Assembly: GCA_030765065.1 (NCBI GenBank)
Contig: CM060975.1
Location: 199,797,007 to 199,861,006 of the forward strand
Direction of reading: 5' to 3'
Length of the DNA stretch: 64,000 bases
Source of the DNA: Deroplatys truncata
Lineage: Eukaryota; Arthropoda; Insecta; Mantodea; Mantidae
Shown here one piece after another: positions 6,209-60,535 of this stretch (positions are counted from its first letter, which is position 1; every line of letters begins with the position of its first letter). The position numbers were made by a program, and so were the translations under genes. Below the pieces are notes generated by a model. That model did not search any database. It was not told the origin of the DNA and saw nothing but the letters and a program-made list of their open reading frames with translations.

Positions 6209-6289
6209 AAAAAAAAAACTATTCTGTAACAAGTTCGCACTATCATAACCGTGGTTTTATTCAACAATGATTATTTACTTTGTCGCTTA

Positions 6290-13567: not shown

Positions 13568-15282
13568 TTTTCTGGTGTGATACATTCACCTGACTTTCTC
13601 TACTCTCTATCATTTATTAGTGGGTATGCAAACTATTTTTACTAAAGCTTATTACTTTCTCTACTACGTATAGTAAGTAGCGAAAGTATTGTATTCCACC
13701 CAAGAATTCGATACCGAGAGTTCAACGGAAATACACGTTTTGAGACCCCCTGAATCCAAAAAAAGCATTTTTGGAAACATGTCCGTGTGTGTGTCTGTGA
13801 ACAGCATAATTCACAAACGAACAGTCGGATAAACACCAAACTTGGTATTTAGGTTCAGTATCTTCCAGAGATGCGACACGAAGGTTTTCAAGAAAATCCG
13901 CCCACCCCAGATTACCCTTTACATGAGACATTTTTCGAAAATTTTAATTTTCTCAAAAATAGCTCTTACGATTTTGATTAAAATGTCATATGTTTAAGAT
14001 ATTTTCATGACAAATGAAATGTATATCTCGAATTTTCTGGGAATGTCTCCAAAAGCATTCTTCATTGTGAACGACTTTTGCGTAACTGGTAAACCATAAG
14101 AGATAGACAAAATTTTACTACACAAAAAGTGTAGATCGCGTTAAAATACATAATTTATGTCATACACATTTTTGTTGAGTGAACCATTTTCGAGATATTG
14201 CTTGCTATTCCCTTTCCAATACTTATACTTTTTCTCAAATTTGTTATTCATTTTTTTTGTCCTGGTAATGCAAAGAAAATGGAATACTTCACATAGCAAC
14301 CAGCTCTTAAAATACTTGACTATAGCTTAAAGCCTACCAATTCCCCTTGCATCTACAAGAACATTAGTAATAATATTAACATCTTGATATCTTGATTAAC
14401 ATGAAGCATTTGGAGAATAAGCGTTTGTAAAAATAGTTTGTACAAGAGTAGAGAAAGTCATGTGAGTGTAACACATCAGATTTTTCTATCTAATATATTT
14501 TAATCCAAATAAATCTTTGCAGAAATAGCTACATTGTACATTTCGTTTCAGGTCAAAGGAAACAACGAACCGGACGCTATATACTGGCCTTAAAATTCTA
14601 TTGTTTCCGTGCAATCCCGAGAAACAACTGAATGTGAAAGGACTTAAGGAATGACCAAGTAATGAACAATTCGAACCTTTAATAAAGGATATCTCATAAA
14701 TGACTCAAGCCACAAAAAATTATTTTAAGTAAATTGTGTGTTTTAAAGAAATCTACATTTTCTGTGTGGCGCGTTTTGTCTGGCGCTTAACGTTTAGCAG
14801 TACAAGATTATGAAAAATTTCTTCCAACAGAAGGGACTTCAGGGCTATTCCCAGAAAATTCAAGATATAGATTTTATTTGTAATGTAAATATCTTTAATA
14901 TGTGGTAGTTTAATCAAAATCGTTAGCCATTTTTTAGAAAATCAGAATTTTCGGAAAATCTTCCATGTAAAGTGTAGTCTGAGATGGGAGAATTTTCTTT
15001 AAATCTTCGTGTCGCATGCTTGGAAGGCATTGAATCTAAATACCAAGTTTGGTATTTATTCGACTTTCGACTTTTGAGTTATGCTGTTCATAGACAGTCA
15101 GACAGATAGATACACGCATACACACACAGATATATACAGAGAAATACACAAGAGTCTTTTTCTAAAAAATGTTTCTTTTAATTCGGGAGGCCTCAAAACA
15201 TGTATTTCCGGTGAAATCTCAACATCGAATTTTTGGGTGGAATACAGTACTTCCCCTACTTGCTCTACATAGTAGAGAAAGT
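13568..15282 (-). mobile_element. H element 11 (B subfamily), split by H12
   Basis: 3' end at 13568-13653, body and 5' end at 14483-15282. Joining the flanks gives CTTATTTTTCTATCT, the same sequence found uninterrupted in the B copy at 59165. The CA-rich tract lies at 15102-15150 and is irregular. Confidence 0.9.
13654..14482 (+). mobile_element. H element 12 (A subfamily), complete, nested in H11
   Basis: About 829 bp with both termini: ACTTTCTCTACTACG at the left, and the hairpin plus CAGATT at the right. The right T-run is shared with the host, so the end is uncertain by up to 3 bp. It lacks the extra 3'-half segment seen in H1 and in the copy at 29330. Confidence 0.9.
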
Positions 15283-15379
15283 AAACATGGCAGATTTATT
15301 TTTTGTGCAGTCTTGTTAACTAGAATATCCTTTTGAATTTGATATTATATATTTAGGCGCAATGCATGTGTTTTAAATA

Positions 15380-16470
15380 TACAGTACTTTTCCCTCACAC
15401 AGCTGTCACCGCTCGGCGGTTCGCGCGCCGACCGCCGCAGCACGGACTCGCGCTGAAAGAGTTATAATATCCCCGCAACCGCTTCATTGTCATATAGTTA
15501 TAATTGCAATGACAATAAGCACTTAACATATCATAAGAGAGGTTAGAAATGTTATCCCTTATCCACGCATTTCTGGCATCTTGTCAGGAAGTTTGTATTC
15601 ACACTCGGGAGTTCAATATGAAAATTTAAGTGACTTTTTCGCCTGAAGTTATCTTTTAGTTCTTCTAATGTATGGAGATTTGTTTCATACACCTTCAATT
15701 TCAATTTTCCGCATAGATAAAAATCGCAAACAGTTAAATCAGGGGGTTGCGGGCTCCTAATCCTTTACTATTTACCCTATCTTCAAAAATTCCTGAATTA
15801 AATTTGACTCGTCAGCGATATGCGTGGTAGCAGAGTCTTGCTGGTAAAATCCAGGCTGGGCTGACATTTAATATCAGTCAGCTTTTCAAAAATGGTGAGA
15901 GTATTACATTCCTGTATCTCTGTGCATTTATTGTTTGTTCAAAAAATACAGATCCTATTATTCTGTACGCATTTGCTTCACACCAATTTTAATGCAAGGG
16001 AATCTTGATTGTAAAATCACGTTTCTCTGTGCTCCAATATCTGTTATTTTGCAACGAAATATAGCATATACGTGGAACCACTTTACGTGAGAGCAATTAT
16101 TCTATCATTTCACAAAATTTAATTACAGAAATTTTTCAGTCTCTGATGATCACTTCCACAATAAGGTATATGCAACAAACTCTAGCACTTTAAGAACTAA
16201 AAGAAATTCGCTCAATTTCTGATATTGAACTCTCGAGTGTGAATGAAAATTTCCTGAGAAGGTACCAGGAATGTGCGGATAGAGGAAGAGAACAATTTCT
16301 AACATATCTTATGACAAGGTGTGTGGTTATTATCATTGTAAATGTAACTGTAAGTGTGAGAACGTGAGGCAGTTGCGGGGATATTATAACTGTTTTGCCG
16401 GGAGTCATAGCTGCGGCGCCCGGCGCACGAGCAGCCGTGCTGTGGCCGCAGTGTGAAGGAAAAGCACTGT
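15380..16470. mobile_element. Fold-back Tc1/mariner-like transposon
   Basis: The left arm (about 15385-15610) and right arm (about 16195-16470) are reverse complements over more than 200 bp. Shared landmarks include ATACAGTxCTTTTCC at the outer edge, TATAATATCCCCGCAAC, and the C-terminal coding tail of a transposase. The outer 80 bp of each arm is strikingly GC-rich (for example CGGCGGTTCGCGCGCCG at 15413) in an otherwise AT-rich setting. Target duplications were not resolved. Confidence 0.75.
15555..16110 (-). pseudogene. IS630/Tc1-like transposase, C-terminal half
   Basis: On the minus strand, fragments appear in the expected order: RYRNVILSPFFEKLTDI-like residues near 15880-15930, then RSPQPPDLTVCDFYLCGKLK near 15690-15750 (third catalytic Asp context with FLWG changed to YLCG), then LHTLEELKDNF and a tail ending in a stop near 15557. 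Frames shift several times and stops interrupt the upstream third. The C-terminal tail is also encoded on the opposite strand in the other arm at 16203-16346 (SSVNENFLRRYQECADRG), so the inverted repeat includes coding sequence. Confidence 0.75.
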
Positions 16471-18990: not shown

Positions 18991-20026
18991 TTTTTTTTCG
19001 AGTGGAGGAGAAAATGATTTAATCGCTTACCCCAGCCCCGATGGGAGTCGGGACTGAGAGTGTGGGACTCACCAATAGTCGGCATACCCACTAAAAACTC
19101 CTCCACCGGTGGAAAAAGGAAGAAGGTAAAAGTGGAATGGCGTGGCTTTTTGCGGTCCCGCATAGCACCCGCGTTAGTACGTGAAAGATGGATGTCTCCG
19201 CCCTATGGGCTGGAGCGGGATAGGTGGTTACTAGGTTGCAGCCATGAAACCTGACTGCAACACCTAGTGGAAAAATGGCGTGGGTTTAAGGAAGTGAATA
19301 GAAGTTAGGATCTAGGATGGTGCTGATGATGATGTTCCTGTTGCTGATTGAACTCCCTGCATTGCTGCAAGAAGCTCGCGACTCTGGCCGGGTCTGGCTT
19401 CGGCCGGTGACCGAGCGATGAAACCCGGATGGCTTCTGTGATGGCTGTGAGTCTGGAAGATGTGCTGTCGAACTGCCCAGCCAGAAAACCTGTTGGGCAG
19501 CTGATGATTCTTGAAGTTCCCGGATGAGTTCCTCCAGGGCTGTCAGCTTCGTCGTCATGTTCAGGAACTCCGCGTGGAGATCCTGAACGGCGTCGCGTAG
19601 GCCCTGGACTTCCTCGTTGAACTGCGAGGGTGAAGGTGCTGGTGTCGGCGTTGGTACTGGTGTCGGCGCTGGAGATCGTGTTGGAGGCGGTGGCTGTGGA
19701 GAAGTCACGATCTGCGGCGTAGGAGCAGACGGCGTCGGCGATGCCTTCCTGCGGGGATGCAGGGGGCAGAGCGCCTGGCCGGTAAAGTGGGATGACCCTC
19801 CACAGGTCGCACAGTAGCGGCGTCGGCGGCGAAGGTCGTGCTGGGTGCACGATGCGGTGGTGCAGGCTGCTCCACAGTAGTGGCACCTGGGTTGAGCTGC
19901 GCAGGTCGTCTCATTGTGCCCGTAGGCACAGCAGCGTCTGCAGGGAGCCTGGCGTTCCACTCGGCCTCGATGCGTAAGCACCGCCCTAACAAGGGCAGGC
20001 CCGCCCTCAAGGCAGCTTCGTAGTCC
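18991..20026 (-). mobile_element. Gag-only non-LTR retroelement, 5'-truncated
   Basis: The poly(A) end (T-run on this strand) is at 18991-18998 and the 5' truncation is at 20026. The element is bracketed by a 10-11 bp target duplication. It contains one gag-like frame followed directly by about 295 bp of non-coding 3' sequence and the tail, with no reverse transcriptase. Such a structure implies mobilisation by enzymes from another LINE. Confidence 0.75.
19286..20025 (-). CDS. Gag-like ORF1 protein with zinc knuckles, 5'-truncated
   Basis: The frame is open from the truncation point to the stop, about 246 codons, with no internal stop. Numbering from the valine/GTG at 19981 as residue 1, Cys14-Cys17-His22-Cys27 is a classical CX2CX4HX4C knuckle. 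Residues 33-45 form a cysteine-rich variant (C33, C36, C40, C45), and Cys57-Cys60-His65-Cys72 is a CX2CX4HX6C knuckle. A proline/threonine-rich stretch covers about residues 78-118, and a heptad-like segment (about 118-160, with VQGLRDAVQDL and LTALEELIRELQ) looks like a coiled coil. Zinc knuckles of this type bind RNA in LINE ORF1 and Gag proteins. Usually they sit near the C-terminus; here about 160 residues follow them. GC content is much higher than in the flanks. No start codon survives because of the 5' truncation, so it is not expected to be expressed as is. Confidence 0.7.
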
Positions 20027-20036
20027 TGCTAAGGGT
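20027..20036. repeat. Target-site duplication, right copy
   Basis: Matches TGCTAAGGGT at 18981-18990. Confidence 0.8.
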
Positions 20037-20244
20037 GCTGGAAATGATTCTTATATAACCTTTACTTATACCTATGGGTGAAACTTTGGGTCGTGGTGCT
20101 CTGAGTAGCGATCTCTCAATCTCTCTAGCGACTAAAGGAAACAATGAAAAATCCCCGGGCGGGGATTAAATGTCACCTTACAAATTCGAGCTATAAGATG
20201 TTATCGCCTGAGTCATCTTGCTTGGTAGTTATATCATAACGTTC

Positions 20245-28712: not shown

Positions 28713-29329
28713 GTTACTATATGTTGTTGAAAGTTATTCCAGTTTTCATGTCATACGCTATCCTTCCATTTTTTTTAACCATTTGGCGCTGTATTAGACA
28801 ATGACATTGAAATCATCCGATTTCCTAGACAAAACGCACCTTTCTATGTAATTATTATTTATCAATCCTTTTAGAAATAAAGCTCATATGCGTACCCAAG
28901 CAAGATCTCTCTTCCAAATTAACCACAAATATCAATGCACTTCTCCAGTTCACCGTTTCTTTTCACTGACATAAATTCTAAAGAACCTTTGTCATCAAAA
29001 CTAGCTCAGATCTCTTACTTCTCTATGTCTTCCACCCTCTGTCTCACTTCTGGCCAGAGTACACTACAATTGTTTTCACCTCATAGCAATGTAGGCAATT
29101 TCGACCTATAGTTAAATATATTCAATATCCTTATTTGTTAATTGAAACCAAAACAGGGTATTTAATGATAAAATTGAATTTTATATTCCAATTAAGAAAA
29201 TCTGATGATCGACTGAAAGCTGTTAACTCATTATTCAAGCGGTTTAACTCCATTTACATCTTTTACTCAATTTATATAGTTGAAAACAAAACATGGCATT
29301 TTCATTGTAAAAATAAAGTTTTCATTTTT
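28713..29329. other. Unannotated stretch
   Basis: AT-rich, no element recognised. Confidence 0.35.
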
Positions 29330-30272
29330 ACTTTCTCTACTACGTATAGTAAGTAGGGGAAATATTGTATTCCACCCAAAAATTTGATACCGAGATTTCG
29401 CCGAAAATATATGTTTTGAGACCCCCTGAATCCAAAAAAAGCATTTTTGGAAACATGTCCGTGTGTGTGTCTGTGAACAGCATAACTCATGAACGAACAG
29501 TCGGATAAACACCAAACTCGGTTTTTAGGTTCTGTATCTTCCAGAGATGCGACACGAAGGTTTTCAAGAAAATCCCCCCAGATTGCCCTTTACCTGGAAC
29601 ATTTTTCGAAAATTTTAATTTTCTCAAAAATGGCTCTAACGATTTTGATTAAAATATCATATGTTTAAGATATTTTCATGACAAATAAAATGTATATCTT
29701 GAATTTTCTGGGAATCTCTCCAAAAGTATTCTTCATTGTGAACGACTTTTGCATAACTGGTAAACCATAAGAGATAGACAAAATTTTACTAAACAAAAAA
29801 TGTAGATCGCGTTTAAATACACATTTTATGTCATATACATTTTTTTGTTGAGTGAACCATTTTCGAGATATTGCTTGTTACTCACTTAAATTTTTCAATA
29901 CTTATTTTTTCAAATGGGAATTCGTTATTCATTTTTTTGTCTTGGATATGCAAAGAATATTAATCCGTGGCAAAGAGAATGGTGCTGCAAATAGCAACCA
30001 ACTATTAAGAGATATGTCGATGCTTAAAGGCTACTGTATTTCTATATTGCCCTTGCAAATACAAAACAAGGGGAACATAGTAGGGCTTAAGTGATAGTCA
30101 AATATTTTTAGAACGGTCGCTATGTGTAAAATGTAATTCTCTTTGCATGTCAAAAGATCGTTTCTGCAAATGTTTATCTCGATTAATTTGAAATAGATTG
30201 AGAATAAGGGTTTGTAAAAATAGTTGTACAAGAGTAGAGAAAGTCATCTGAGTGTAACAAATCAGATTTTTA
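29330..30272 (+). mobile_element. H element 18 (A subfamily, long form), complete
   Basis: About 943 bp and uninterrupted, so it serves as the reference for the long form and shows the unbroken site used by H2. GTGTGTGTCTGTG lies at 29461-29474. The 3' hairpin is intact on one side (CATCTGAG...AACAAAT), with a mutated stem. Confidence 0.9.
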
Positions 30273-30427
30273 TATATATATTCAAAGATTATTTGTTATC
30301 TCTATAACAACTTCAGCGTTATACTCTAATATAAGGCATTTGAATAAATAATAAACATAATTAAAATTAAGGCAATAAAATTACTAAATAGGATTTTAAA
30401 TCATTCGTTTGAAATCATTGATTAAAC

Positions 30428-30900
30428 CGAGAGGGAAGGCTCAGGGAGTGACGTCTGTGGCCCGTATTCGGTTCGATTCCCGGCCACCGTCCACCATGGG
30501 TTTTTCATGCTTTCCCTGGGATTGAAAGACGAATGCTGGGGTGTTTTTTTTCTACCACGGTTTCCTTTCCGTCATTTCCCTTTCATTCTGTTTCCTTATC
30601 ATCCTTCAAGTGTGCTTCTAGGTCTCGTGGCGTGTGGCAGTGCCGGACAGATGGCGCGGATGCATGCTCACTGGAAAGAATAATCCCCATGGACACCAGA
30701 GGGCTGCTCGACTAGTGGGTCGTTCATCGCCAACTCAGGCGGCTCCGTAGGTGACATACAGGTATGCGTGCTTGCAAATGTTAGGGATTTCCGCGCGGCT
30801 CTGTACCCTGCGGCCTATAGCCACCTGTGTGATTCCTTCACTCCGTCCCTTCCTCCTCGGGAGTGCTAGGCACAATAGATCTCTGTAGGTCGCGATTCTG
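30428..30900 (+). mobile_element. tRNA-derived SINE (S1b)
   Basis: Head GGCTCAGGGAGTGACGTCTG, B box CGGTTCGATTCCCGGCCACC. The middle has GAATGCTGGGGTGTTTTTTT, and the 3' region has CCGTCCCTTCCTCCTCGGGA. It matches 17690-18220 along its length. Confidence 0.75.
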
Positions 30901-30997
30901 AGCAACTATAACCTATATCATTGACTGAAACCTCCTAGCTTCATCACAATTAATATTGTGACGAGCTAAGAAAATATGTGCTCCATATTCTCAATAT

Positions 30998-31050
30998 AAA
31001 TAATAATAATAATAATAATAATAATAATTATTATTGTTATTATTATTTTA
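30998..31050. repeat. (AAT)n followed by (ATT)n, inverted microsatellite
   Basis: About ten AAT units run directly into interrupted ATT units. This could be two LINE-type triplet tails meeting tail to tail. Confidence 0.7.
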
Positions 31051-31639
31051 AAGTATTCAAAATCCTCGCATTATTTCGCACTATAAAGTTTAGCGAATGT
31101 TTTGCTATGTGAATATTGCATCTTTTGGGGAAACAGTACAGTACTTCTGCAGCATATAAGCCCACAGCTTCCTGTTATGCTGTCGTAATAGTGTCATGTA
31201 AAAACCCTTTGGGTTAACCTTTCCGTTAGTAAATCCTGTAGCAACTCTAAAAATTCTGCAACAGCTTGATGGCGCAAAATAATGTCTAAATATTTCGAGA
31301 ACGGACTGGAAGTCAAGACGGTATAAACCATGAGGGCGACTTATCCGGAATGTGCCAGTTTTTGAACCGTCAGGCTGAACCCACATCGCCGGTCGTAGTC
31401 CAGACCGGACATTGTGCTACTACAACTCCTCGGCTTAGCCCCGCCACAAGACCAAAAAATTCTTTGGGTACTGGAAGCACTCTGGCTCCAAATGCATATA
31501 TTCCCACATTTCATGGTAGTGTTCCCAGAGGGCGACGAGTGATTCAGTACCTAGTCGGCTAAAACAGATATTGGACGGATTATTATAATAATGTACAACC
31601 CTCAGATTTTTCAACTCGTCTCTAGGCATCCTTAAGGAA
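31051..31639. other. Unannotated stretch, possibly a minus-strand retroelement end
   Basis: If the (ATT)n at its left is a tail, the stretch would read on the minus strand. The frames there (for example at 31105-31386) show no domain I recognise. Confidence 0.3.
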
Positions 31640-31679
31640 TATAACATTACTCTGCCTAATATGTTCCCTTGTTTCATAG

Positions 31680-33440
31680 ATTCAGATTATATACCATGGA
31701 AACTCACAAATCCCTGTATTGATACATCACTGGCTAGACAAAGAAAACCTTCAACAAATAGTTTTCTTATAAACTTCTGTTTAACTAATTCTGTGCACTT
31801 TATTCAGCACACACACAAATCTTCACTGATGGATCAAGACTTCATGGTTACAATGGAAGTGCACCAGTATTCCCTGAATACACCATACAATATAGTCTTC
31901 TCAACTAACCTTCTGCCTATTCTTGTGAATTTTTCGCAATTCAACTCTCATTGGAACATATACTTAAAAAATCTGATGTGTTACACTCACATGACTTTCC
32001 CGACTCTTGTACAAACTATTTTTACAAACGCTCTCCATCTACTTCATGTTAATCGAGATAAACATTTGCAGACTCTATCTTATTGCTAATTTTCTTGTAG
32101 ATGTAAGGGGAATATATATATTTACAAGGGCAATATAGAAATACAGTAGCCTTTAAGCATAGACATATCTCTTTATAGCTGGTTGCTAGGTGCAGCACCA
32201 TTCTCTTTGCCACAGATTAATACTCTTTGCATATACAAGACAAAAAAATGAATAACGAATTCCCATTTGAGAAAATAAGTATTGAAAAATTTAAGGGAAT
32301 AACAAGCAATATCTCGAAAATGGTTCACTCAACAACAAAAATGTATATGACATAAATTGTGTATTTTAACGCGATTTACATTTTGTGTGTAGTAAAATTT
32401 TGTCGATCTCTTATGGTTTACCAGTTATGCAAAAGTCGTCCACAATGAAGAATACTTTTGGAGGCATTCCCAGATAATTCAAGATATACATTTTATTTGT
32501 CATGAAAATATCTTAAACATATGATATTTTAATCAAAAATCGTTAGAGCAATTTTAGAGAAAATAAAATTTTCGAAAAAGTTCCATGTAAAGGGTAATCT
32601 AGGGTGGGGAGATTTTCTTCAAAATCCTTCGTGTCGCATCTCTGGAAGATACTGAACCTAATTACCAAGTTTGGTGTTTATCCGACTGTTCGTTTCTGAG
32701 TGATGCTGTTCACAGACACACACACACAGACGGACATGTTTCCAAAAATGCTCTTTTTTGGATTCAGAGGGTCTCAAAACATGTATTTCCGGTGAAATCT
32801 CGGTATCGAATTTTTGGGTGGAATACAATACTTCCCCTACTTACTATACGTAGTAGAGAAAGTAAAAAGATAACCTACATACTTACATAATATTCTGCGA
32901 CTCGTTGAGTGCTTTAACGTCCCTCCAACAATTATTAACCTCCCAAAAATTGTTAAAGAAATTCAGAAACTGTACAACCAAATATTAATCTCATGTAAAT
33001 CAGTATCGTTCGCCTGGACTGCGTCTCACGTCAAAATTTTGGGAAATGAATCAGCTGATCAGGCAGCCAAAGAAGCCACCAAACATCCCCTCAGGAGATC
33101 AAGATCCCACACACGGACTTCATCAGCTTCATCGCAAAGACTTGCATTAATCAATAGAGACAAACATGTAAAGCCACATCTAAAAGCAAGTTACACGATG
33201 TCTACATTTCCGAGTCCAAACTTCAACACTACCATTTCAACCGCAAAGACCAAGTTGTGTTAACTCGACTACGTATTGGGTGTACTTCTATAATGCACAA
33301 ACACCTCTTCAACCTTGACCTTCCTCCTGTGTGCGACCTCTGCGATCCAACCTCACAGTTCATCATCTCGTTACAGCCTACCGTCGCTGTGTACAACACA
33401 GAGAAAGATGTGACATCCACAACAGCCTATCAGACGTCGT
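31680..33440 (+). pseudogene. LINE ORF2: RNase H domain and C-terminus, broken
   Basis: Linker YIPWKLTNPCIDTSL, then a frameshift and QIFTDGSRLHGYNGSAPVFP (31819-31880), with the first RNase H Asp in TDGS. Next comes CEFFAIQLSLEHILK just before the H insertion, with the Glu position in CEFFAI. After the insertion, YIIFCDSLSALTSLQQLL (32890-32945) holds the second Asp in the DS motif. Another frameshift leads to VSFAWTASHVKILGNESADQ (33005-33065), with the His/Asp region. The tail has LTRLRIG and PPVCDLCD. An RNase H domain is characteristic of the I clade and its relatives and is absent from most Jockey elements. Frameshifts and stops rule out function. Confidence 0.8.
31967..32863 (-). mobile_element. 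H element 19 (A subfamily, long form), complete
   Basis: About 897 bp. AAAATCTGATGTGTTACACT at the left is the 3' hairpin end and CTACGTAGTAGAGAAAGT-type sequence at the right is the 5' end (reversed). The CA tract is short (32715-32728). It sits within LINE coding sequence. Confidence 0.9.
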
Positions 33441-40349: not shown

Positions 40350-40641
40350 TGTATGTATATCAGCGAGCCACTGTTTTCTTTTGGGACCTCCTACGCTGTC
40401 TTTGGAAATATTTCCACTGCGTTCTTTACACAATGTTGTTTGGTCGCTAGGAACTATCGCTTTCACTCTCGCTATGTGAAATTTGATAAAAATGTGCAAA
40501 TGTTCAATTTGTTTAATTGTTGCATTATTATTATATTCATACCTTATACTTCGATCCTACGTAATTGTTTTAATACAAACAATTTAAAGCTACAAATAAT
40601 TGATAGGTAAAGCAACGCATTTAACATTAAATTCCATTTTT

Positions 40642-42025
40642 ACTTTTCTACTACGTATAGTAAGTAGGGGAAGAATTTTAATCTCACCCGAAAATTTGGT
40701 ATCGAGGTTTCATCGGAAATATGTATTTTGAGCTCCCCTGAGTAAACTTTTTTTTTTTACTTTCTCTATTACGCATAATAAGTAAGGGAGGTATTGTATT
40801 CTACCCAAAAATTCTTTATCGCGATTTCAACGGAAATACATGTTTTGAGGCCCCCTGAATCCAAAATCTGTCTGTGTGTCTTTGAACAGCATAACCCAAA
40901 ATCTAAAAGTCGGATCAACACCAAACTTGGTATTTAAGTTTAGTACCTTCCTAAGATGTGACACAAGATTTTCAAGAAAATTCCCCCACCGCAGACTACC
41001 CTTTACATGAAAGATTTTTCGAAAATGTTTATTTTTTTAAAAATAGCTCTAATGATTTGGATTAAAACATCATATATTAAAAATATTTACCTGACAAATA
41101 AAACTTTTATCTTGAATTTTCTGGGAATAGCCTGTTAAATCCACTTATTTGGAAGGAATTTTGTATAATCTTGTATAACTGGTAAACGTTAAGCGACAGA
41201 CAAAAACGTACTACAAAAAAAAATGCAGACCTCCTTAAAATACACACAATTTATTTAAAACAATTGTTTGTGGTTTAAATCGTTTCTGAGATATCCGTTA
41301 TTAAAAGCTCCAATTGCTCACTTCTTGGTCATTCTCTTAAAGTCCTTTTCAAATTCAATGTTTTCTCGCGCTTGCGTGGAAACAGTATGGAAGTTTAAGG
41401 CTAGTATATAGCGCCCAGGTCTTAAACATTTGACTGTCGCTGTTTCCTTTGTATCTATAACGAAATGTGTAATATAGCTATTTCTGAAAAGGTTTATTTG
41501 GATTAAAATGTAGTCGATAGAAAAGTTAGCTTGCATATTAATAATTTGTATACCCACTAAGAAACGATAGAAAAAGTCGATTTTTAGAAAAAAAAATCCC
41601 TTGTTTTTGTGTGTGTATCTCTCTATATATGTGTGTATGTGTGTGTTTGTGAATAGCATAATTCAAAAACGAAAAATCGGATAAATAATAAATTTGGCAT
41701 TTAAGCACCTTCCAAAAATGTTAAAGAAAATCCCCTACCCCAAATACCCTTTACATGGAATGCTTTTCTAAATTTTCGATTTTCTCAAAAATGCTTTAAC
41801 GGATTTGATTAAAATACTCTGTATTCAAAATATTAAATGACCAATAAAATTTATGTTTGAATTTTCTGGGAATAGCCTGTGAAGTTCTCTTTATTCGAAA
41901 GGAATTTCGTAGGATCTTGTGTAACTAGTAAATGTTAAGCGATAGACGAAAACGCACTATACAAGAAATGTGATCTGTTTAAAACACGCAATTTACGTTT
42001 AATAACTTTCTTGTGTCATAAGCCA
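40642..42025 (+). mobile_element. H element 22, split by H23
   Basis: 5' block at 40642-40752, then the remainder from 41586 to about 42025, with a GT-rich tract at 41605-41650. The 3' third and hairpin are missing. Confidence 0.8.
40759..41585 (+). mobile_element. H element 23 (B subfamily), near-complete, nested in H22
   Basis: Starts ACTTTCTCTATTACGCATAA. The 3' end has lost the hairpin: ATAGAAAAAGTC is followed directly by GATTTTT. The insertion point is the A/T tract closing the 5' block of the host copy. Confidence 0.85.
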
Positions 42026-42027
42026 TT

Positions 42028-42476
42028 AGCTGTACTGTAAGCCATAACTAACCGTTTGTCTGAGTTGCAGTTTGGATTGATGTCAGAGCGCTTATCATAT
42101 CATATTGTGAAGTAGTAAGTACATTATTCTTACGAAATTTCGGGGATAAAACTGCAAAATTCTTGAGTAAACTTGTAAAAAATGCAGAAGTAAAGGCCGC
42201 ATTTAATTTGATTTTACTTAAAACAGCTTTAAGAAATGTATATTACCTCCAGTGTGATTGAAGACTAATTTGCCAATGCCATATTTTCTATATCATTGTG
42301 TTAACGGAAATAGAATGTGTTATTTAGACAGTGTTTATTTAAGGCACATTGTCAACCCCTGTTTATAAAAGCATCACAGCAACAAAACGAACATTACAAA
42401 CTCATATGGCTTCGTAATTAACTGCTTTTTCAATCTATAAATTTCATTTTCTTTCGGAATAACAATAATAAGTATC
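42028..42476. other. Unannotated stretch
   Basis: No element recognised. Confidence 0.35.
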
Positions 42477-42645
42477 ACTACTGCTAGTCTGATGGCTAAC
42501 ATGTTAGCTTCCAAATCCATAGGTCTCGTGTTCAATTCCCGCCTGGAGGATGACAATTTGCCTTTAGCCAGGATTATTCCCGGTCCTTCCTAAAGTCTTC
42601 AAGTATGAGTGAGAGTGTAACTGAGTGTGTGAACTTAATGTTTAA
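42477..42645 (+). mobile_element. tRNA-derived SINE (S2-like)
   Basis: ACTAGTCTGATGGCTAACATG head, B box GGTCTCGTGTTCAATTCCCG, then GGAGGATGACAATTTGCC and a TGAGAGTGTAACTGAGTGTG tail. Same subfamily as the minus-strand fragment at 9385. Confidence 0.7.
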
Positions 42646-42851
42646 CAAGAAAAACCAATATAATAGTTTCGTCAGATATTGTTTACCAAATATTGTATCT
42701 TTTGAGAATGCTGAGAACTGTATGATGTTACTTTAAACACCTCCAATAACCTTTATTTCTCCTGAGGAGAAATTAGTTGATAAAAACCTACCGATTATGC
42801 TAGCTGCCGTATTTTTACATGTTTCTCTCAAATTCATCTATGTGTGCTTAT

Positions 42852-43692
42852 AAAAATCTGGTGAGATGCATTCACATGACTTTCTCTAACCTATGTCGTT
42901 TATTGTGGGTATAGAAATTATTCTTAGTCAAGCTTATATTTCTATCCACTGCATTTTAATCCAAATAATACCAGAAATAGTTGCATTACACATTCGTTAT
43001 AGATACAAAGAGAGCAGCGACAGTCAAGGGTTTAAGAACAGGGCGCTGTATGGTGGCCTTAAAATTCCATACTTTTCCCATGCAATCGCGAGAAAGGGCT
43101 TTACGAGAATGTCCAAGAAATGAGCAACTCGAACCTTTAATAACGGATATCTCAGCAACGGCTTATACTACAAAAAACAATTTATTTAAAATAAATTGTG
43201 TTTTAAAGAGATCTACATTTTTTGTGTAGTACGTTTTCGTCTATCGCATAACGATCATACAAAATTCTTTCCGAATGAAGAGATCTTCATGGGCCATTCC
43301 CCGAAAATTCACGCTATATACCTTATTTGTCATGTAAATATCTTTCGTATATGGTACTTTAATAAAAATCGTTACAGGCATTTTTTAGAAAATCAAAAAT
43401 TTCAAAAAAATTTCCAGGTAAAGGGTAGTTTGAGATCGGGAATTTTGTTGAAAATCTTCGTATCGCATCTTTGTATGATATTGGACTTAAATACCAAGTT
43501 TGGTATTTATCCGACTTTTCGTTTTCGAGTTATGGTGTTTATAGACACACACACACACACACACACACACACAAGGAAAAATGCTTTATTTGGATTCAGA
43601 GAGCCTCAAAATATGTATTTCCGGCGAAATCTCGTTATGGATTTTTTGGGTGGAATGCAATACTTCTTTTGCTTAGTTTAAGTAGTAGGGGA
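42852..43692 (-). mobile_element. H element 24 (B subfamily), complete
   Basis: About 840 bp, uninterrupted. 3' end AAAAATCTGGTGAGATGC, CA tract 43544-43573 (about 15 repeats, the longest pure one here), 5' block ending in a degenerate AAGTAGTAGGGGAAG. A 161-codon frame through it is fortuitous, since decayed family copies do not keep it. Confidence 0.9.
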
Positions 43693-44620
43693 AGAAAAAG
43701 ACTCTCAATTTCAAAGAGACAGTGTTATTTCAGAAAATGAATGATCCTTTCACATAAGGCTGTGGATAATCCTTGGATTACATAGATGCGATTAACTAGG
43801 AGTGGTTGACACAGCCTGTATATTAACCTATATTTTTGAGATGAATAATTAAACATCAACTACATCAGTGTTACATTTCACGTAACGCGCATGGAAAATG
43901 GATGAATCTTTCCATTCTCTTGATTCCCTGCAGAAGTTACTTTGCCGAAGGAAAGAGAGTGAGATGTTCCTGAGAAGAATCGATGTTGGTCCAGATGCTG
44001 GGTCATCCATCCTCGGCCCGCTGACAAGGGATTACCTTCATGGTCTCCGTGCAACAGTCCCGCAAGTCACACATTGCTCCCTGTTGGTCCCTTGCGGAGG
44101 TACATTCAACTTTCTGTGCTCTGATTTTTCGTCTAGCCATAAAGCAAATTTGTGACAGTACAAATAAAATTATCATGCAATAGGTATTTCGGCCAGATAA
44201 AATCAGCAATCGGAGAATTAAAAAAGGAAAGAAAGAAGGAAAACGTTAATTTCATCTTTCTCTCCTTGATATGCACGTTTAAAGCGTGCACATTTTCTGT
44301 TTGTAAGTTAAACAGCTTATACATTATGATACTTTTTAAACAAAAATTTCAAAGGTTTCACAAAAATCGCTCTCATGATAAATTTTCAATTTTTGCTATG
44401 AAACTTAATGTATTTCATTCGTGATTATGTAACTAAAGAAACGACGATTTTTCTCAATGTTAAGCGAGTGCCAATCAAAAGAAGTTGTTATTGTGCATCC
44501 TGTGATTGTTCAAAACGAACTATGTAATACAAAGTCTCGCCAACTGTTAGGAGAGAGGTATTATTTTATTTTTGAGTGCTCGAAAATTAAAACCTGCAGG
44601 AATTTACTCGGCTAAAGGAA
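43693..44620. other. Mostly unannotated; one anonymous ORF at 43898-44155
   Basis: The 85-codon plus-strand frame begins MDESFHSLDSLQKLL and has normal-looking composition and higher GC than its flanks. I see no domain. It might be an exon or transposon relic. Confidence 0.25.
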
Positions 44621-47804: not shown

Positions 47805-48334
47805 ATGCCACAAAAAAACTTATTTGAAGTAAATTGTGTGTTTTAAACATATCTGCATTTCTTGTGTAGTGCGTTTTCGTCTATTGCTTAGCGTTCAGTA
47901 GTTGTACAAGATTATACAAATTTCTTTCAATTGAAGTGAACTTCACAGGTTATTCCAAGAAAATTCAAGATATACATTTATTTTCCAAGTAAATTCCTCT
48001 AATATGTGCTATTTTAATAAAAATCTTTAGAGCCATTTGTTAGAAAACCAAAAACTTCCAAAAATCTTCCATGTAAATGGTATATTGGAGTGGAGGAATT
48101 TTCTTGAAAATTTTCGTAACGTATTCTTGGAAGGTACTAAATCTAAAAACTAAGTTTGATGCTTATCCGAGTTTTCGTTTTTTAGTTATACTAAAAACAC
48201 ACACGCTCACGCGGAACTTTTTCTGAAACTGCTTGTTTTTTGATTCAGGGGGCCTCAAAATATGCATTTCCCGTGAAATATGGACATGGAATTTTTGGGA
48301 GGAATAGTAGAAGAGTATATGTAGTAGAGAAAGT
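47805..48334 (-). mobile_element. H element 25 (B subfamily), 5' two thirds
   Basis: Begins in the interior at AAACTTATTTGAAGTAAATTG and runs to GTAGTAGAGAAAGTAAG at the 5' terminus. The 3' hairpin end is absent. Confidence 0.8.
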
Positions 48335-48349
48335 AAGAAGAAAATGACT

Positions 48350-48823
48350 GCCCATCTGAGAAAAGCATAAGTATTTGAAAATTCAAAACAATAACAAGAA
48401 ATAGTTCGAAAATGGTTAACTCCACGGAGAAAGAAATAATTTAAATTGTGTACTTTAACGAGATCCACATTTTTTGTGTAGTATGATTGTATCTATCTCT
48501 TACAATTTGCTAGTTATGCAAAAGTCATTCAGGGTGAAGAAGACTTCAGAGAAATCGTTAAAGGAATTTTTGAGAAAATAAAAATTTTCAAAAAATGTTC
48601 CACGTAAAGGGTAGTCTAGGGTGGGGTTTTTCTTTAAAATATTCGTATCGCATCCTTGGAAGATGCTGAACATAAATACTAAGTTTGGTATTAACCGCTT
48701 TTCGCTTTTTAATTACGTTATTCACTCACACGCATACAACATATATTTCCGGTGAAATCTCGACGTGGGATTTTTGGGTCCAATACAATACTTCCCCTAC
48801 ATACTATATATAATGGAGAGAGT
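48350..48823 (-). mobile_element. H element 26 (A-like), 5' part
   Basis: Interior from GAGAAAAGCATAAGTATTTG to a degraded 5' end, ATAATGGAGAGAGTA. The CA tract is reduced to CACTCACACGCATAC. Confidence 0.75.
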
Positions 48824-49166
48824 AAAAAAGGCTTAATATAGGAGAAAGAGGCAGCTTTATCATGAATGTGACACCCGCTTTGCCAATCTAGCCACTGCAG
48901 TGACTGTGATATTAAATACAAAGTGTTAATAAACGTGTTATAATGAATGCGAGTTGGAGGGATTGGTATGCGGTGGGCATCAATTTGGAAGTCCCGCTCT
49001 TCATTTAGTGTCATTAGTCTGTATCGGATAATGCAGCACAACCCCTCGGTTATTGCCCTATAACATAGCTGCTGCGTGCGTCATACTCGTCTACATTCAT
49101 ACCGCATCATATCGGGCTTCGAACTTTAACTAAACCATTCCTTTACAGGAAGACAAGAGAAAGCTT
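48824..49166. other. Unannotated stretch
   Basis: No element recognised. Confidence 0.3.
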
Positions 49167-49935
49167 TTTTAGGGGAAGTATTGCATTCCAACCAAAAATT
49201 CTATATCAAGATTTCACCGGAATTGTATGCTTTGAGGTGCCCTAAATTCAAATAAGGCATTTTTGGAAACATGTCCGTGTGTATTTCCGTCTATCAGGAT
49301 GTGAACAGTATAACTCAAAAATGAAAAGTCGGATAAACACCAAACTTGGTACTTGAGTTTACTATCTTCCAAGGATACGACACGAAGATTTTCAAGAAAA
49401 ACCCCCACCCCAGACTACCCTTTATATGGAACAATTTTTAAAAAAATGTTATTTTCTCAAAAATGCCTCTAAGGATTTTCATTAAAATATCATACGTTTA
49501 AGATATTTTCATGGTAAATGAAATGTATATCTTGAATTTTCTGGTAATGTCCCCAAAAGCCCTCTTCATTCTGAATGACCTACGTATAACTGGTAAACCG
49601 TAAAAGATAGGCAAAATGTTACTACACAAAAATGTTGATCTCGTTAAAACACACAACTTATGTCGTATATTCTTTTTTTTATTAAGTGAACCATTTCTGA
49701 GATATTCCTTGTTATTTGTTTGAGTTTCGAATACTTATACTTTTTCTCAAATAGGAATTCGTTATTCGTTGTTTTTATGTTCTAGACATGCAAAGAGAAT
49801 GGAATGCTCCACCTAGCAACCAGCTCTTAAAATATTTGACTATCGCTTAAAGCCTACCATATTTCCCTTGCACCTACAAGAAAATTAGCAATAAGATGGT
49901 TTCTGCAAATGTTTATCGCGATTAACATGAACTAT
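49167..49935 (+). mobile_element. H element 27 (A-like), both ends lost
   Basis: Starts within the 5' block (AGGGGAAGTATTGCATTCCA) and stops at GCGATTAACATGAACTATGT, about 60 bp short of the 3' terminus. Confidence 0.8.
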
Positions 49936-50263: not shown

Positions 50264-50828
50264 CGGTTCCATTTGCATGGCTATATTTCGCTGCAAAATA
50301 ACATGTATTGGAGTACAGAGAAACCCGATTTTACACAACAGATTCCCTTGCATGACGCGAAAATTGTTGTGCAAAAATGTATACAGAATAATAGGATCCA
50401 TATTTTTTAACAAAGAATAAATGCAGTAACAGGAATGTCATACTCAATCATTTTTAATAGATAACCAACGTTTAATGTCATTCTGGATATTTCTAAAAAA
50501 ATCTGTACTCCCTCACATACAGCTGATGAGTCATTAAATTTAATTAAGGAAAATTTTAAAGCTAGGATAATTAGTAAAGAATTGTGGCTCTCGTGATCCC
50601 TTGATTTAACTGTATATGCCCTGTATCTATGGCAGAACTTGAAAAGTAGATGTGAGTAACAAGCTCCATACATAGGAAGAAATAAAAGAAAACAGCAGGC
50701 GAGAAATTCATTCAGTTTCAGATACTGAACTTTCCAGTGTGAATGAAAACCTCCGGATAAGATACCAGAAATATGCGGATAGACAAGGATAACATTTCCA
50801 GCACCTCTCATGATGTATGTGCTTATTA
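50264..50828 (+). pseudogene. IS630/Tc1-like transposase, C-terminal half
   Basis: This is the plus-strand counterpart of the relic at 15555-16110. Traces include IIGSIFF-like residues near 50392, RIISKELWLSRDPLI near 50562-50605 (equivalent to the WPARSPDL region) and SVSDTELSSVNENLRIRYQK near 50715-50775, continuing to a stop near 50791. Numerous stops and shifts occur. The WWxL/CDFFLWG block is eroded to LYMPCIYGR. The C-terminal tail ends just before the CACTA-type insertion. Confidence 0.65.
50826..50828. repeat. 3-bp target duplication TTA, left
   Basis: TTA directly before CACTAG; repeated at 51763-51765. The paralogous arm at 16335 shows the single-copy site GGTTATTATCATTG. Confidence 0.75.
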
Positions 50829-51762
50829 CACTAGTCTGCATGATATCGGATGACTGAAAACTAATAAGTGATTCTGACTCGCTTTGTAATGCTGATTTCA
50901 GAGCTGCGTTTAGCTTTTTTCTATAACGTACAGTTTTTTCACAATTTCACTTCAAAAATGTAGAGATATAAAGATATTGCTTCCGCCACTACACATAAAA
51001 TTGGGCTTGATGAAGCAATTTGTAAGAGCTCTACCACAGGATGAACCTTGCTTCAAGTACCTATCCAAGATATTTTCCTTAATTACACTAGACAAATCAA
51101 AGTCTGGAATTTTTGTTGAACCTCAAACAAAGAAATTGATGAAGGATGAAGATTTTGAGAAGACAATGAATGAGAGAGAAATAGAAGCATGGACCGCCTT
51201 CCGAGTTACTGAAAACGTTTAGGCAATATCAAAGATTCCAATTACAAGGCCATTGTCGAAACAATGTTGCAAAGTTTCAAGAAGAGGGGTTGTAACATGA
51301 GTGTAAAGGTGCATTTTCTGCATTCACATATCGACTACTTTGCAGAAAATCTGGGACATTATAGTGAAGAGCAGGGTTAACGTTTTCACCAAGATATTAA
51401 GGAAATAGACAGGAGGTACCAGGGGAGATGGAATGAAACTATGATGGCCGAATACTGTTGGATGTTGAGGAGGGACAGTCACCTTCAAGGATCTGCAAGG
51501 GAGTCAAAGAAGAGAAAGTTTGAAAGTATGAGAGTATTCTTAAAAGCTTTCTTGAATGAAAACATACTTTGTGTGAAATGGTATTTGAATACTTTTCTAC
51601 GCTCATTAGTAAAATTTTCAAAGCAGTACTTCTTATTTTGTGTAAAAACATGACGTGATAGAAAAAAATGGAAGCTATTTCTGGAATCAGCATAAAAACT
51701 TGATTCAAGAACACCTACTTTTAAGAAATCATCTGACAAAAATTTTGACATGCAGACTAGTG
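50829..51762 (+). mobile_element. CACTA-type (CMC) DNA transposon, 934 bp, internally deleted
   Basis: Perfect 14-bp terminal inverted repeats CACTAGTCTGCATG / CATGCAGACTAGTG, a 3-bp TTA target duplication, and termini starting CACTA, together diagnostic of the CACTA/EnSpm/CMC group. It carries one broken ORF of a conserved but unnamed arthropod family. No transposase core is visible. Confidence 0.8.
50965..51530 (+). pseudogene. Conserved ORF of unknown function inside the CACTA-type element
   Basis: The first frame (50977-51222) begins LPPLHIKLGLMKQFVRAL and continues through PQTKKLMKDEDFEKTMN and EIEAWTAF. A frameshift then gives RLGNIKDSNYKAIVETMLQS, GCNMSVKVHFLHSHIDYF, AENLGHYSEEQG, a stop, then RFHQDIKEIDRRYQGRWNET and MMAEYCWMLRRDS, closing near a basic SKKRKFES tail. 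I recall the same block order in uncharacterised proteins repeated many times in insect, crustacean and cnidarian genomes, which suggests a transposon protein. I know of no assigned biochemical role. One frameshift and at least two stops disable this copy. Confidence 0.7.
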
Positions 51763-51765
51763 TTA
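51763..51765. repeat. 3-bp target duplication TTA, right
   Basis: Partner of 50826-50828. Confidence 0.75.
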
Positions 51766-51904
51766 TCATTGTAACTGTAATTGTAACTATGAGAACGCCA
51801 AGCGGCTGTGGAAATATTATAACTGTTTCGGCGTGGATCCGAGCTGCAGCGGACGGCGCGCGAGCAGCTGTGGCCTGCATTATGAAGCGGAGGGAATTCG
51901 TCAC

Positions 51905-56994: not shown

Positions 56995-57826
56995 AAAAAT
57001 CTGATGTGTTACACTCGCATGACTTTCTCTATTCTTGTACAAACTATTTTTACAAACGCTTATTCTCCATATGCTTCATGTGAATCGAGATACCGAGATG
57101 TTAATCTTATTGGTAATTTTCTTGTAGATGCAAGGGGAATTGGTAGGCCTTAAGCGATAGTCAAATATTTTAAGAGCTGGTTGCTATGTGGAGTATTCCA
57201 TTCTCTATGCATTACCAGGACAAAAAAATTATAACCAATTTCCATTTGAGAAAAAGTATAAGTATTGGAAGATTTAAGGGAATAACAAGCAATATCTCGA
57301 AAATGGTTCACTCAACAAAAACAGGATATGAAATAACTTGTATATTTTAACGCGATCTACATTTTTTGTTTAGTAAAATTATGTCTATCTCATGGTTTAC
57401 CAGTTATGCAGAGGTCGTTCACAATGACGAATACTTTTGGAGACATTCCCAGAAAATTCGAATTATACATTTCATTTGTCATGAAAATATCTTAAACATA
57501 TGATATTTTAATCAAAATCGTTAGAGCCATTTTTTTTTATAAAATAACTTTCGAAAAACCTTCCATGTAAGGATAGATTTTGTGAGGTATTTTCTTAAAA
57601 ATCTTCGTGCCGTATCTTTGGAAGATACTGAATCTGAATACCATGTTTAGTATTTATCCGATTTGTCGTTTTTGAGTTGCTGTTCATAGACACACACGTT
57701 TTTCTAAAAATGTTGTATTTTTATTCAGGGGGCCTCAAAACATGTATTTTCGGTGAAATCTCGGTATCAAATTTTTGGGTGGAATGCAATACCTTCTCCA
57801 CCTACTAGCTACGTGGTAGAGAAAGT
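56995..57826 (-). mobile_element. H element 28 (A subfamily), complete
   Basis: About 830 bp, AAAATCTGATGTGTTACACTC (hairpin end) to CTACGTGGTAGAGAAAGTA. The CA tract has collapsed to ACACACAC at 57688. Confidence 0.9.
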
Positions 57827-58454
57827 AAAACGATAGATTAATTGTATTCTATTAGTTAAGAAGTTACGAAGTGAAAGGTGGACAGTGCCAGTGCAGCTCA
57901 GTTGTGAGTTGTGATTCGAAAGATCAGTTGTGTTGTGTTCCGAGTGTGTGCCAAAATTCACTCAAATGTAACGCTTGTGCTACACTTAGTGCCTGTGTAA
58001 TAAATGAAGTGTGTTTCGCAGTAATGCTATTCTTTCTTGTTAAATAGTGAAATGGAAATCAAATACCAGTTATCGAACATTGCAGCGTTTAATAGTTCTC
58101 GCTGCAAGGTAAAAGATCAAATTTTTATTTGCTCAAGGCTGGAGTTTTCCAACTGGTTATGGTCACGGTTATCAGGAAACGGAGGAGAATTTCGGCATTT
58201 AAAAGCACACGAAGACTTATTGCGCTTCTGGAAACGCGGAGGAGGGGTTTATGTGAAGGACACAGAAGTGGCCAGATCCGGGGCAGTAGGCTCAGACGCA
58301 GGCGGGGTTCCTAATGTCTCTAGATAATACATCCTGACACCGGTGGGTCTCCATAGGTCTATCTCCCGACTGAGGTCTCTCTGGCGGCCCGTCACACATC
58401 GGACCGCAACAGAACAGTTTCTCAAAGGAAGCTCCACCGCCAAATCCACTCGCT
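57827..58454. other. Unannotated stretch with one anonymous ORF
   Basis: A 96-codon plus-strand frame (58037-58327) has a GTGAAGTTGTG-rich leader and AATAAATG at 57998. Its residues show no domain I know. It could be a piece of an LTR element, but no second LTR is seen. Confidence 0.25.
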
Positions 58455-58575
58455 GTATCCTTCTACCCTGAAACGTGATAAGAAAATGAAATAACATGAA
58501 ATGGGGGACAGTAAAATTCGGGGATTATAAAATATATACCAACATTCGCCTTTCATGCAGGGAAAACCGAGAAAA
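58455..58575 (-). mobile_element. S1a SINE fragment, decayed
   Basis: ACCCTGAAACGTGATAAG, AAAATTCGGGG and GGGAAAACCGAGAAAAGCC align with 35390-35515. Confidence 0.5.
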
Positions 58576-58977
58576 GCCAAGTTTGGCTCAATAGGAGCAC
58601 ACCAATGTACACATTACCACAGACACGTTACATGCACCGTCTCTCTCGGTTCGCAACTGGTTAAAAGGACAAAGGAGTTTATCGCATCGTTTCTCAGAGT
58701 GTATTCCGCAAACAGGGATACAGATACCCTGTGCTGAGATTCAACCATTAGCCTATGCTAATAACAGCATCTATCAGCAGTAAAATGAAGACTGATTAGA
58801 AGGGCGCGCAGTTAGCATCGAGCGACCCAGGCCCCGTATATTAGAGTGAAGAGGAAATGCGCGAGCGAACAGCAATCAAGCCACACATCGGCAAAGGAAT
58901 ATCTTAGGTTTCAGCCTTATGGTTAGTATTTATGATGAATTCAAGACTAGAACTGTGGATTTGTTTGTTTTCTTTTT

Positions 58978-60535
58978 ACTTTCCTATTGTATACCTATAG
59001 TGAGTAGAGGAAATATTGTATTCCACCCAAAATTTGGGTATCGAGATTTCACTGAAAATACACATTTCGAGATTTCCTAGATAAAAAAATTGATGTGACA
59101 CATTCACATGACTTTCTCTACCCTCGATCGTTTATTAGTGTGTATACAAATTATTCTTACTAAAGCTTATTTTTCTATCTACTACATTTTAATCTTTTGC
59201 ACAATAGCTACATTATACATTTCCTTGTAGATACAAAGGGAATAGCGACAGTTAAATGTTTAAGAACTGGACGCTATACGCTGGCATTAAAATTCCAACT
59301 GTTTGCATGACATGGCGAGAAATAATTGAAAATCGATAGGACTTTAAAAGAATGTCTAAGTATTGAACAATTCGAACCATTAATAAAGAATATCTCGGAA
59401 ATGGCTGACGCCAGAAAAAAACTTGATTTAAATAAATAGAGATCTACATCTTTTGTGTAGTACGTTTTCATCTATCGCTTAACGTTTACCAGTTATACAA
59501 GATTATATAAGTTCATTCCGAACGAAGTGGACTTCACAGGCTATTCCCAGAAAATTTAAGATATACATTTTATTTGTAATTCTAGTATAAATATGTTTAA
59601 TATGTAGTATTTTAATCAAAACCGTTAACCATTTTTTTAGAAAATAAAAAATGTTGAAAAATGTTTCATGTTTAAGAGTAATTTGGCGTAGGGGATTTTC
59701 TTGAAAATCTTCGTGTCACATCTTTGGAAGTACTGAACCTAAATACTTTTTAATTATACTGTTACACACACACACACACAGACAAGCTCATGTACGGACC
59801 GTTTTCTAAAAATTTTGTTTTCGGATTCAGGGGTCTCAAATTCAGGTAAAATTTCGGTGTCGTATTTTTGGATGGAATGCAATACCTACCTTCTTTGCCT
59901 ACTATGTACGTGACAGAAAAAGTAAAAAAGCATTTTTATGATTTATGTTGTGTCCGAGAATAGCATAACTGAAAAATATTTTAAAGATTTTTAATTCTTA
60001 TTTAAGTATCTTCTAAAGATGCGACAACAAGATTTTGAAGAAAAGTATCCTTAACATAGCAGATTTGTCGAAATTCTTTTATTTTCCCAAAAATGGAACT
60101 AACGACTTTGATAAAAATACAATATGTTTAAGATATTTGAATGACAAATAAAATATATATCTTGAATATTTTGATAATATCTCGTGAAGTCCCTTTCATT
60201 CAGAATGACTTTTATAACTAGTAAACCGTAAGAGATAGGCAAAAAGTTACTACACAAAAAATCAAGATCTCGTTAAAGCACACGATTATATCAGATAAAG
60301 TGCTGTGTGACGTTAACCATTTCTGAGACATTCATTATAATTGGTTTGAGTTTTCAGATACTTATAACTTTCTCAATTCAATTTACCTGCTGTATTCTAC
60401 AACAATATGTGTAAATATGTAACGAAAGTTTACCTAGATTAACAAGAAGTGGACAGAATAGTAAGTTTTGTAAGAACAGATGTTTAAAAATTAAGTAGAG
60501 AAAGTCATGTGAGTCAAACACATACGATTTTTTTT
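58978..60535 (+). mobile_element. H element 29, split by H30
   Basis: 5' block at 58978-59082 (ACTTTCCTATTGTATACCTA). The rest, from 59924 to 60535, ends in AGTAGAGAAAGTCATGTGAG and a hairpin arm CACAT before a T-run. A diverged, older copy; it has lost the GT tract. Confidence 0.8.
59084..59923 (-). mobile_element. H element 30 (B subfamily), complete, nested in H29
   Basis: About 840 bp. AAATTGATGTGACACATTCACATG at the left is the hairpin end and GTGACAGAAAAAGTA at the right is the 5' end. The CA tract is at 59766-59781. Confidence 0.85.

Follow-up and report, generated by a model that had tools for sequence, protein, structure and literature searches.

A CMC-like DNA transposon derivative in Deroplatys truncata and the probable remnant of its own transposase

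The closest described systems include the CMC/CMCT clade of DDE transposons, which in the available part of PMC12730594 comprises EnSpm/CACTA, Mirage, Chapaev, Transib, Plavaka, ESTA and Lanisha and is characterized by CA..TG ends, target site duplications (TSDs) of 2–5 bp, and C(2)C and H(3-4)H motifs between the second Asp and the last Glu. In the accessible portion of PMC6004678, invariable CAC/GTG ends are a mark of CACTA/CMC elements, there with a 2-bp TSD. Chapaev and Mirage are associated with the domains DUF1280 (PF06918) and DUF1258 (PF06869), respectively, in the extract of PMC3985635. Animal TRC elements, for example SmTRC1, were placed in the CACTA superfamily by their authors and, according to the extract of PMC1636069, have CCC ends, 2-bp direct repeats and Transposase_21, with sizes of ∼5.2 kb in Tribolium and ∼9.2 kb in Aedes. 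The RAG1 residues D708, C727, C730, H937, H942 and E962 are listed in the extract of PMC4914335, and the ends of the piggyBac element Kenshin are given as CACTAGA in that of PMC4298943.

We analyzed a stretch of 64,000 nucleotides from the mantid Deroplatys truncata (hereafter the window) and within it a 934-bp element at positions 50829–51762. The features of the element and of its empty site, in window coordinates, are as follows.

50826..50828, no strand: 5′ copy of the duplicated target site, TTA (the arm at 16325–16340 is empty and has TTA once)
50829..50842, plus strand: 5′ terminal inverted repeat, CACTAGTCTGCATG (2,361 exact genome copies)
50829..50946, plus strand: 5′ non-coding end, equivalent to full-length positions 1–115 (blastn against the full-length copy in L061)
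50947..50958, plus strand: breakpoint at which 1.3 kb of internal sequence is missing; full-length position 115 is followed, after ∼12 bases, by 1412–1414
50914..51222, plus strand: probable transposase remnant, piece 1, with the LPPLHIKLGLM block and the first conserved His (stop at 51220–51222)
51213..51377, plus strand: probable transposase remnant, piece 2, with H(4)H (HFLHSH), the SEEQG block and the proposed catalytic Glu
51381..51653, plus strand: probable transposase remnant, piece 3, RFHQDI...YQGRWN...C-terminal end, continuing into 3′ non-coding sequence
51525..51529, plus strand: second deletion, ∼70 bp in comparison with a full-length copy (1981 joined to 2052)
51749..51762, minus strand: 3′ terminal inverted repeat
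51763..51765, no strand: 3′ target site duplication, TTA
16325..16340, plus strand: paralogous empty site (blastn of both flanks)

The outermost 14 bases at either side of the element are perfect inverted repeats, followed inward by a weak inverted match (73% over 56 bases, element positions 61–116 and 810–865), and TTA stands on both sides. The 14-mer occurs twice within the window, both times exactly; in shuffled windows, occurrences with at most two mismatches averaged 0.22, and two were found in 5 of 100 shuffles. A repeat with inverted arms is present at 15421–16458 and again at 50265–51887; one copy is the target into which the element inserted, and the other supplies two empty sites. 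The paralogous arm at 16325–16340, located with both flanks, reads GGTTATTATCATTG and has a single TTA and no element; the opposite arm (15480–15560, minus strand) is likewise empty and has TTATTG there, one base different. The initial annotation had described the 934-bp unit with perfect 14-bp CACTA repeats, a TTA duplication and an empty site near 16335, and all of these were seen; for the family as a whole, the repeat is 13 bp and the TSD either TTA or TAA.

Elsewhere in the window, a repeat that is very abundant and frequently arranged as inverted pairs occurs, for example, at 1102–2557, 5103–6211, 13645–15285, 29321–32866, 40632–43698, 47812–49681 and 57104–60376, and GC is 0.47–0.49 at 18–24 kb. 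A 254-codon open frame at 19286–20050 on the minus strand resembles the gag of a retroelement, having motifs similar to Cys/His knuckles and a stretch rich in Pro, Ser and Thr. Translation resembling that of the abundant repeat (RVASLEDTEPKYQVW...) was also seen inside the CACTA copies L005/L016, L023 and L058, and probably L010 and L062; some insertions of the repeat are therefore younger than those copies.

Across the 4.29-Gb host assembly, to which all genome counts refer, the 14-mer occurs exactly 2,361 times (1187+1174), against three (1+2) for the reversed control, and the repeat is not unique to this locus; uniqueness was what the initial annotation had named as refuting its reading. 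TTA or TAA precedes 2,019 of these occurrences, and the target is therefore TWA. We sampled the first 49 consecutive listed places of the repeat end on one contig, pairing 5′ and 3′ ends by alignment and not by TSD match. TWA preceded the 5′ end in 43 of the 49 places, and a 3′ end could be aligned in 45. The flanking triples of the latter were identical in 29 cases (28 TWA and one CTT) and not identical in 16; permuted triples gave a mean of 15.7 and a maximum of 25 identical pairs in 2,000 permutations. At the 3′ end, 39 of the 45 copies read ...GCATT and none had a terminal G, which puts the family repeat at 13 bp and makes the fourteenth matching base particular to the window copy. The same length follows from the 20-mer of the other end, CACTAGTCTGCATTTTCAAA, which occurs 1043+1074 times in the genome (control 0). 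Full-length relatives have CACTAGTCTGCAT ends, mostly in TWA.

The sampled elements fall into size classes. Seven of the 49 were full length, six of them with both ends and measuring 2232–2309 bp; 38 have one internal deletion of 1.3 kb in common with the window copy; and the remaining four include a 203-bp miniature. The deletion junction (115 joined to ∼1414) is alike in the 38 copies and the window copy, small indels aside, and one deletion product has therefore been amplified. The distance to the majority sequence of the derivatives averaged 0.033 (n = 34, window copy included), the largest, 0.0545, being that of the window copy itself, which is missing an additional ∼70 bp near the end of the open reading frame (ORF) and retains both ends and the C-terminal third of the ORF. 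In its termini and TSD the element matches a longer coding element, its internal coding region is deleted and its junction recurs in other copies, which is the pattern of a non-autonomous deletion derivative. No fully intact copy was found among those read. The miniature (L027) is a MITE-sized derivative joining full-length 115 to ∼2214, with TTA on both sides. Another deletion derivative, L044, has a different junction (281 joined to 1425), and internal deletion therefore arose more than once.

The initial annotation had treated the protein as an orphan and proposed a search for longer copies. Such copies, of 2.2–2.3 kb and with matching ends, were found, and they hold a single ORF of ∼560 codons, probably a transposase, that includes the orphan block. 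The frame is open for 534 codons in L059, and the majority frame of 17 full-length copies has 566 codons; the window ORF corresponds to the C-terminal third of this ORF, starting shortly before H381 and running to the end. No separate CMC transposase was seen in the full-length copies translated (forward frames, and both strands for L018). Rather than orphan cargo, the ORF most likely represents the transposase of the element.

The majority protein has three Cys-x2-Cys pairs close to its N terminus (CYIC, CRYC and CYFC), and the order of motifs in the protein is D, D, C(2)C, H, H(4)H, E, corresponding in L059 numbering to D259, D313, C332/C335, H381, H489/H494 and E507/E508. The two Asp are 54 residues apart, the second Asp and the first Cys 19, and the His and Glu 13–14. 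Among 5,000 shuffled proteins, the loose motif order appeared in 165 and the exact spacing in 16; judged from residue order and spacing, the match is suggestive, short of proof.

Profile searches did not link the protein to a described family. For the 534-aa protein, Pfam gave nothing at E ≤ 10 (most matches above ∼0.1 are removed by the HMMER filters), NCBIfam gave no match, and a PDB profile search gave no meaningful match. The Pfam near-matches (Protoglobin, Cpf1_PI-like, DUF4508 and WHD_MCM8) were all below the cut-off and were treated as chance, as were the PDB near-matches BPa0997 (window piece) and Scarecrow-like 3 (profile). Genome profile searches with PF02992, PF12940 and PF06918 gave no matches, but their control matched nowhere either, so they do not speak to presence or absence. 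Viral contigs, searched by protein, by alignment and with motif patterns, and genome contigs outside the host gave no relatives; one scan in each case was weak, as it used peptide patterns outside the catalytic blocks. The pattern matches L001–L004 look unrelated once translated. Phages and plasmids likewise gave no relatives, the only plasmid matches being two Cupriavidus records at E = 7. In the literature, the motif words of the protein matched no paper and, among the matches listed for the end sequences, none was about transposons; the family may already be in Repbase or Dfam.

We also read 14 copies chosen by protein from 150 scored (9,610 first-look candidates). The choice was not random, four being picked for long open frames and ten others lying on the plus strand, and mostly the 5′ end only was covered. 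A 5′ terminus was present in 11 of the 14 (one reads TACTAG), preceded by TWA in 9 of the 11. L060 retains the 3′ terminus with TTA and L062 a part of it, while L066, covered on its 5′ side, begins inside the element. In total, 13 of the 14 keep a terminus, whole or partial, and the link drawn in the initial annotation therefore survived its other proposed refutation, ORF copies lying without CACTA termini.

A search pattern for EQGERFHQD, written with degenerate codons and departing from the window copy in two of them, matched at 88 places (control 0), of which six loci were read. Four of these (L073–L076) form one family, with DNA 83–87% alike over the main matches and a protein 30–54% identical to that of the first family in 11 aligned segments of at least 100 columns, several with stops or gaps. 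The first His is readable in all four copies, and the first Asp (L074 and L075), the second Asp (L073 and L074), the C(2)C (L074 and L076) and the H(4)H (L073 and L074) in two each, with F or L replacing the middle His of HFLHSH; the remaining motif positions show a deletion, a shift or a change. The Glu block is not independent, because the search pattern contained it.

This second family has CACAGGTC ends (CACAGG..CCTGTG), exact at four of five 3′ ends and with one change at the fifth. Two measured copies are 2295 and 2254 bp long, and TTA follows the 3′ end in five of five cases and precedes the 5′ end in two of two. Of three copies covered on either flank, two showed both ends and one (L081/L082) neither, and the 5′ end combined with TWA had 111 genome matches (control 0). 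Because a second family of the protein ends in this way, the letters CACTA are not diagnostic, contrary to the weight first placed on them. The ends differ while the protein, size and target are the same, and the rule of the lineage is therefore CAC...GTG ends with TWA. A further variant, represented by three copies (L085–L090), gave no boundaries. Two more diverged relatives of the transposase keep some motif residues; L077 (193–1905) is missing the first Asp together with the second His of the pair, and L078 the first His. In L077, CTAGTG followed by TTA forms a 3′ end ∼405 bases downstream of the Glu block. The 5′ flank of L077, however, reads ATA, and we therefore class it no further than as a probable third family.

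The window ORF had been described as decayed but conserved. The decay stands, as the frame changes near 51205–51222 and TAA interrupts it at 51378–51380 (SEEQG*RFHQDI), but the likeness among copies is that of shared descent and not of selection. In the derivatives, singleton changes were spread over the three codon positions as 119/108/131 (P = 0.33) and shared changes as 37/42/35 (P = 0.71), and 102 of 472 were synonymous, with a neutral expectation of 0.218. The full-length copies had singletons at 222/202/241 (P = 0.18) and shared changes at 50/29/36 (P = 0.051), the excess being at position 1 and not 3, and 193 of 780 changes were synonymous, with an expectation of 0.231. Family copies decay like dead sequence, and the window remnant is a passenger, not a working gene.

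Transib elements make a TSD of 5 bp, piggyBac targets TTAA, and PIF/Harbinger elements have a TWA consensus and a two-gene layout with a DDE domain and a second Myb-like ORF. Compared with these and with the CMC/CMCT clade as far as it is characterized in the sources above, the element has the clade's type of termini (CACTAG..CTAGTG, and CACAGG..CCTGTG in the second family, all within CAC...GTG), a TSD within its 2–5 bp range (3-bp TWA, with an empty site) and D-D-E with C(2)C (C332/C335) and H(4)H (H489/H494), each readable in two of four second-family copies, and a third conserved His. It differs in having no Pfam match, a compact 2.3-kb single gene and a preference for TWA. The Pfam search of the protein gave neither Transposase_21 (PF02992), expected of EnSpm/CACTA proper, nor the DUF1280 (PF06918) of Chapaev; it gave no match for the DUF1258 (PF06869) of Mirage either, a model whose presence in the Pfam copy used is unconfirmed. 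With RAG1, as far as its residues are given in PMC4914335, the protein shares the spacing of 19 from the second Asp to the Cys (D708–C727), the C(2)C and an H(4)H (H937/H942) before the Glu, whereas the distance between the two Asp is 54 rather than 108 and that from His to Glu 13–14 rather than 20. Unlike in RAG1/Transib, the TSD is 3-bp TWA, and there is no RAG1 Pfam match. An animal TRC element was rejected, the CCC ends, 2-bp repeats, Transposase_21 and large size in the extract on those elements all being absent here. The first six bases, CACTAG, are those given for Kenshin, but piggyBac was rejected on the 3-bp TWA, an empty site of TTAT and not TTAA, and the absence of a piggyBac Pfam domain.

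Seen from the window copy alone, the protein has the appearance of a captured fragment in a CACTA-type element moved by an unseen CMC transposase. The longest elements read, however, hold the whole protein and no other long frame, and the 5′ end and the whole or partial termini recur in the protein-picked copies (11 and 13 of 14); a second family with different ends and like size and TSD is explained simply by an element-borne transposase, and we regard capture as quite unlikely. The TWA before 2,019 of 2,361 ends agrees with membership in PIF/Harbinger, the CACTA ends then being coincidental, and canonical Harbinger transposons make 3-bp TSDs in the available part of PMC12730594. Against this, the lack of a Pfam match means that the Harbinger DDE domain was not seen, the element has one ORF and no second Myb-like gene was seen, and a C(2)C and an H(4)H between the second Asp and the Glu are the CMCT layout; despite its 3-bp TWA, PIF/Harbinger was set aside as very improbable.

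In a different role for the remnant, the C-terminal fragment of the 1-kb derivatives would be made as a protein that, in a KP-like manner, inhibits or aids transposition, accounting for the spread of the derivative. The majority frame of the derivatives is indeed open for 207 codons and retains the H...H(4)H...E part, but their substitutions are even over codon positions, with the synonymous share set out above against its neutral expectation, and such a function appears very improbable.

We conclude that the window element is, with high probability, a non-autonomous internal-deletion derivative of a CMC-like cut-and-paste DNA transposon and that its ORF is the remnant of the transposon's own DDE transposase. 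The full ORF would encode a DDE transposase with an RNase H-like core of D259, D313, C332/C335, H381, H489/H494 and E507 or E508, residues that appear to be laid out as in the RAG1/Transib and CMC superfamilies. Its N-terminal Cys-rich region probably binds zinc and may recognize the element ends, and the enzyme would cut at the CAC...GTG ends and join them to TWA with a 3-bp stagger. Because neither the two catalytic Asp nor the C(2)C pair is left in the 1-kb derivatives, these would be mobilized in trans by the full-length transposase.

The link of the protein to CMC/CACTA, drawn in the initial annotation from the termini, is strengthened by the CMCT motif set, the ends and the TSD. As there is no Pfam, NCBIfam or PDB match, kinship with CMC rests on these and not on sequence or fold and, at the level of sequence motifs, falls short of proven. 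We therefore call the element CMC-like and provisionally file it under none of EnSpm, Mirage, Chapaev or Transib.

A protein without a model in the searched family libraries gains an identity, with termini, a target site and proposed catalytic residues, and a compact relative becomes available for comparing the active-site layout of RAG1/CMC and the TWA target preference. Tentatively, the protein could represent a CMCT-type DDE transposase lineage of its own, one that has no model so far and stands beside Plavaka, ESTA or Lanisha. Its members would be compact elements of 2.3 kb with a single gene, CAC...GTG ends and TWA as the target, a reading that we consider somewhat less likely than not. 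Many uncharacterised multi-copy animal proteins presumably have the LPPLHIKLGLM and SEEQGERFHQDI blocks. If the lineage is real, these proteins would be its transposases, and they would shift from "uncharacterised gene" to "transposase."
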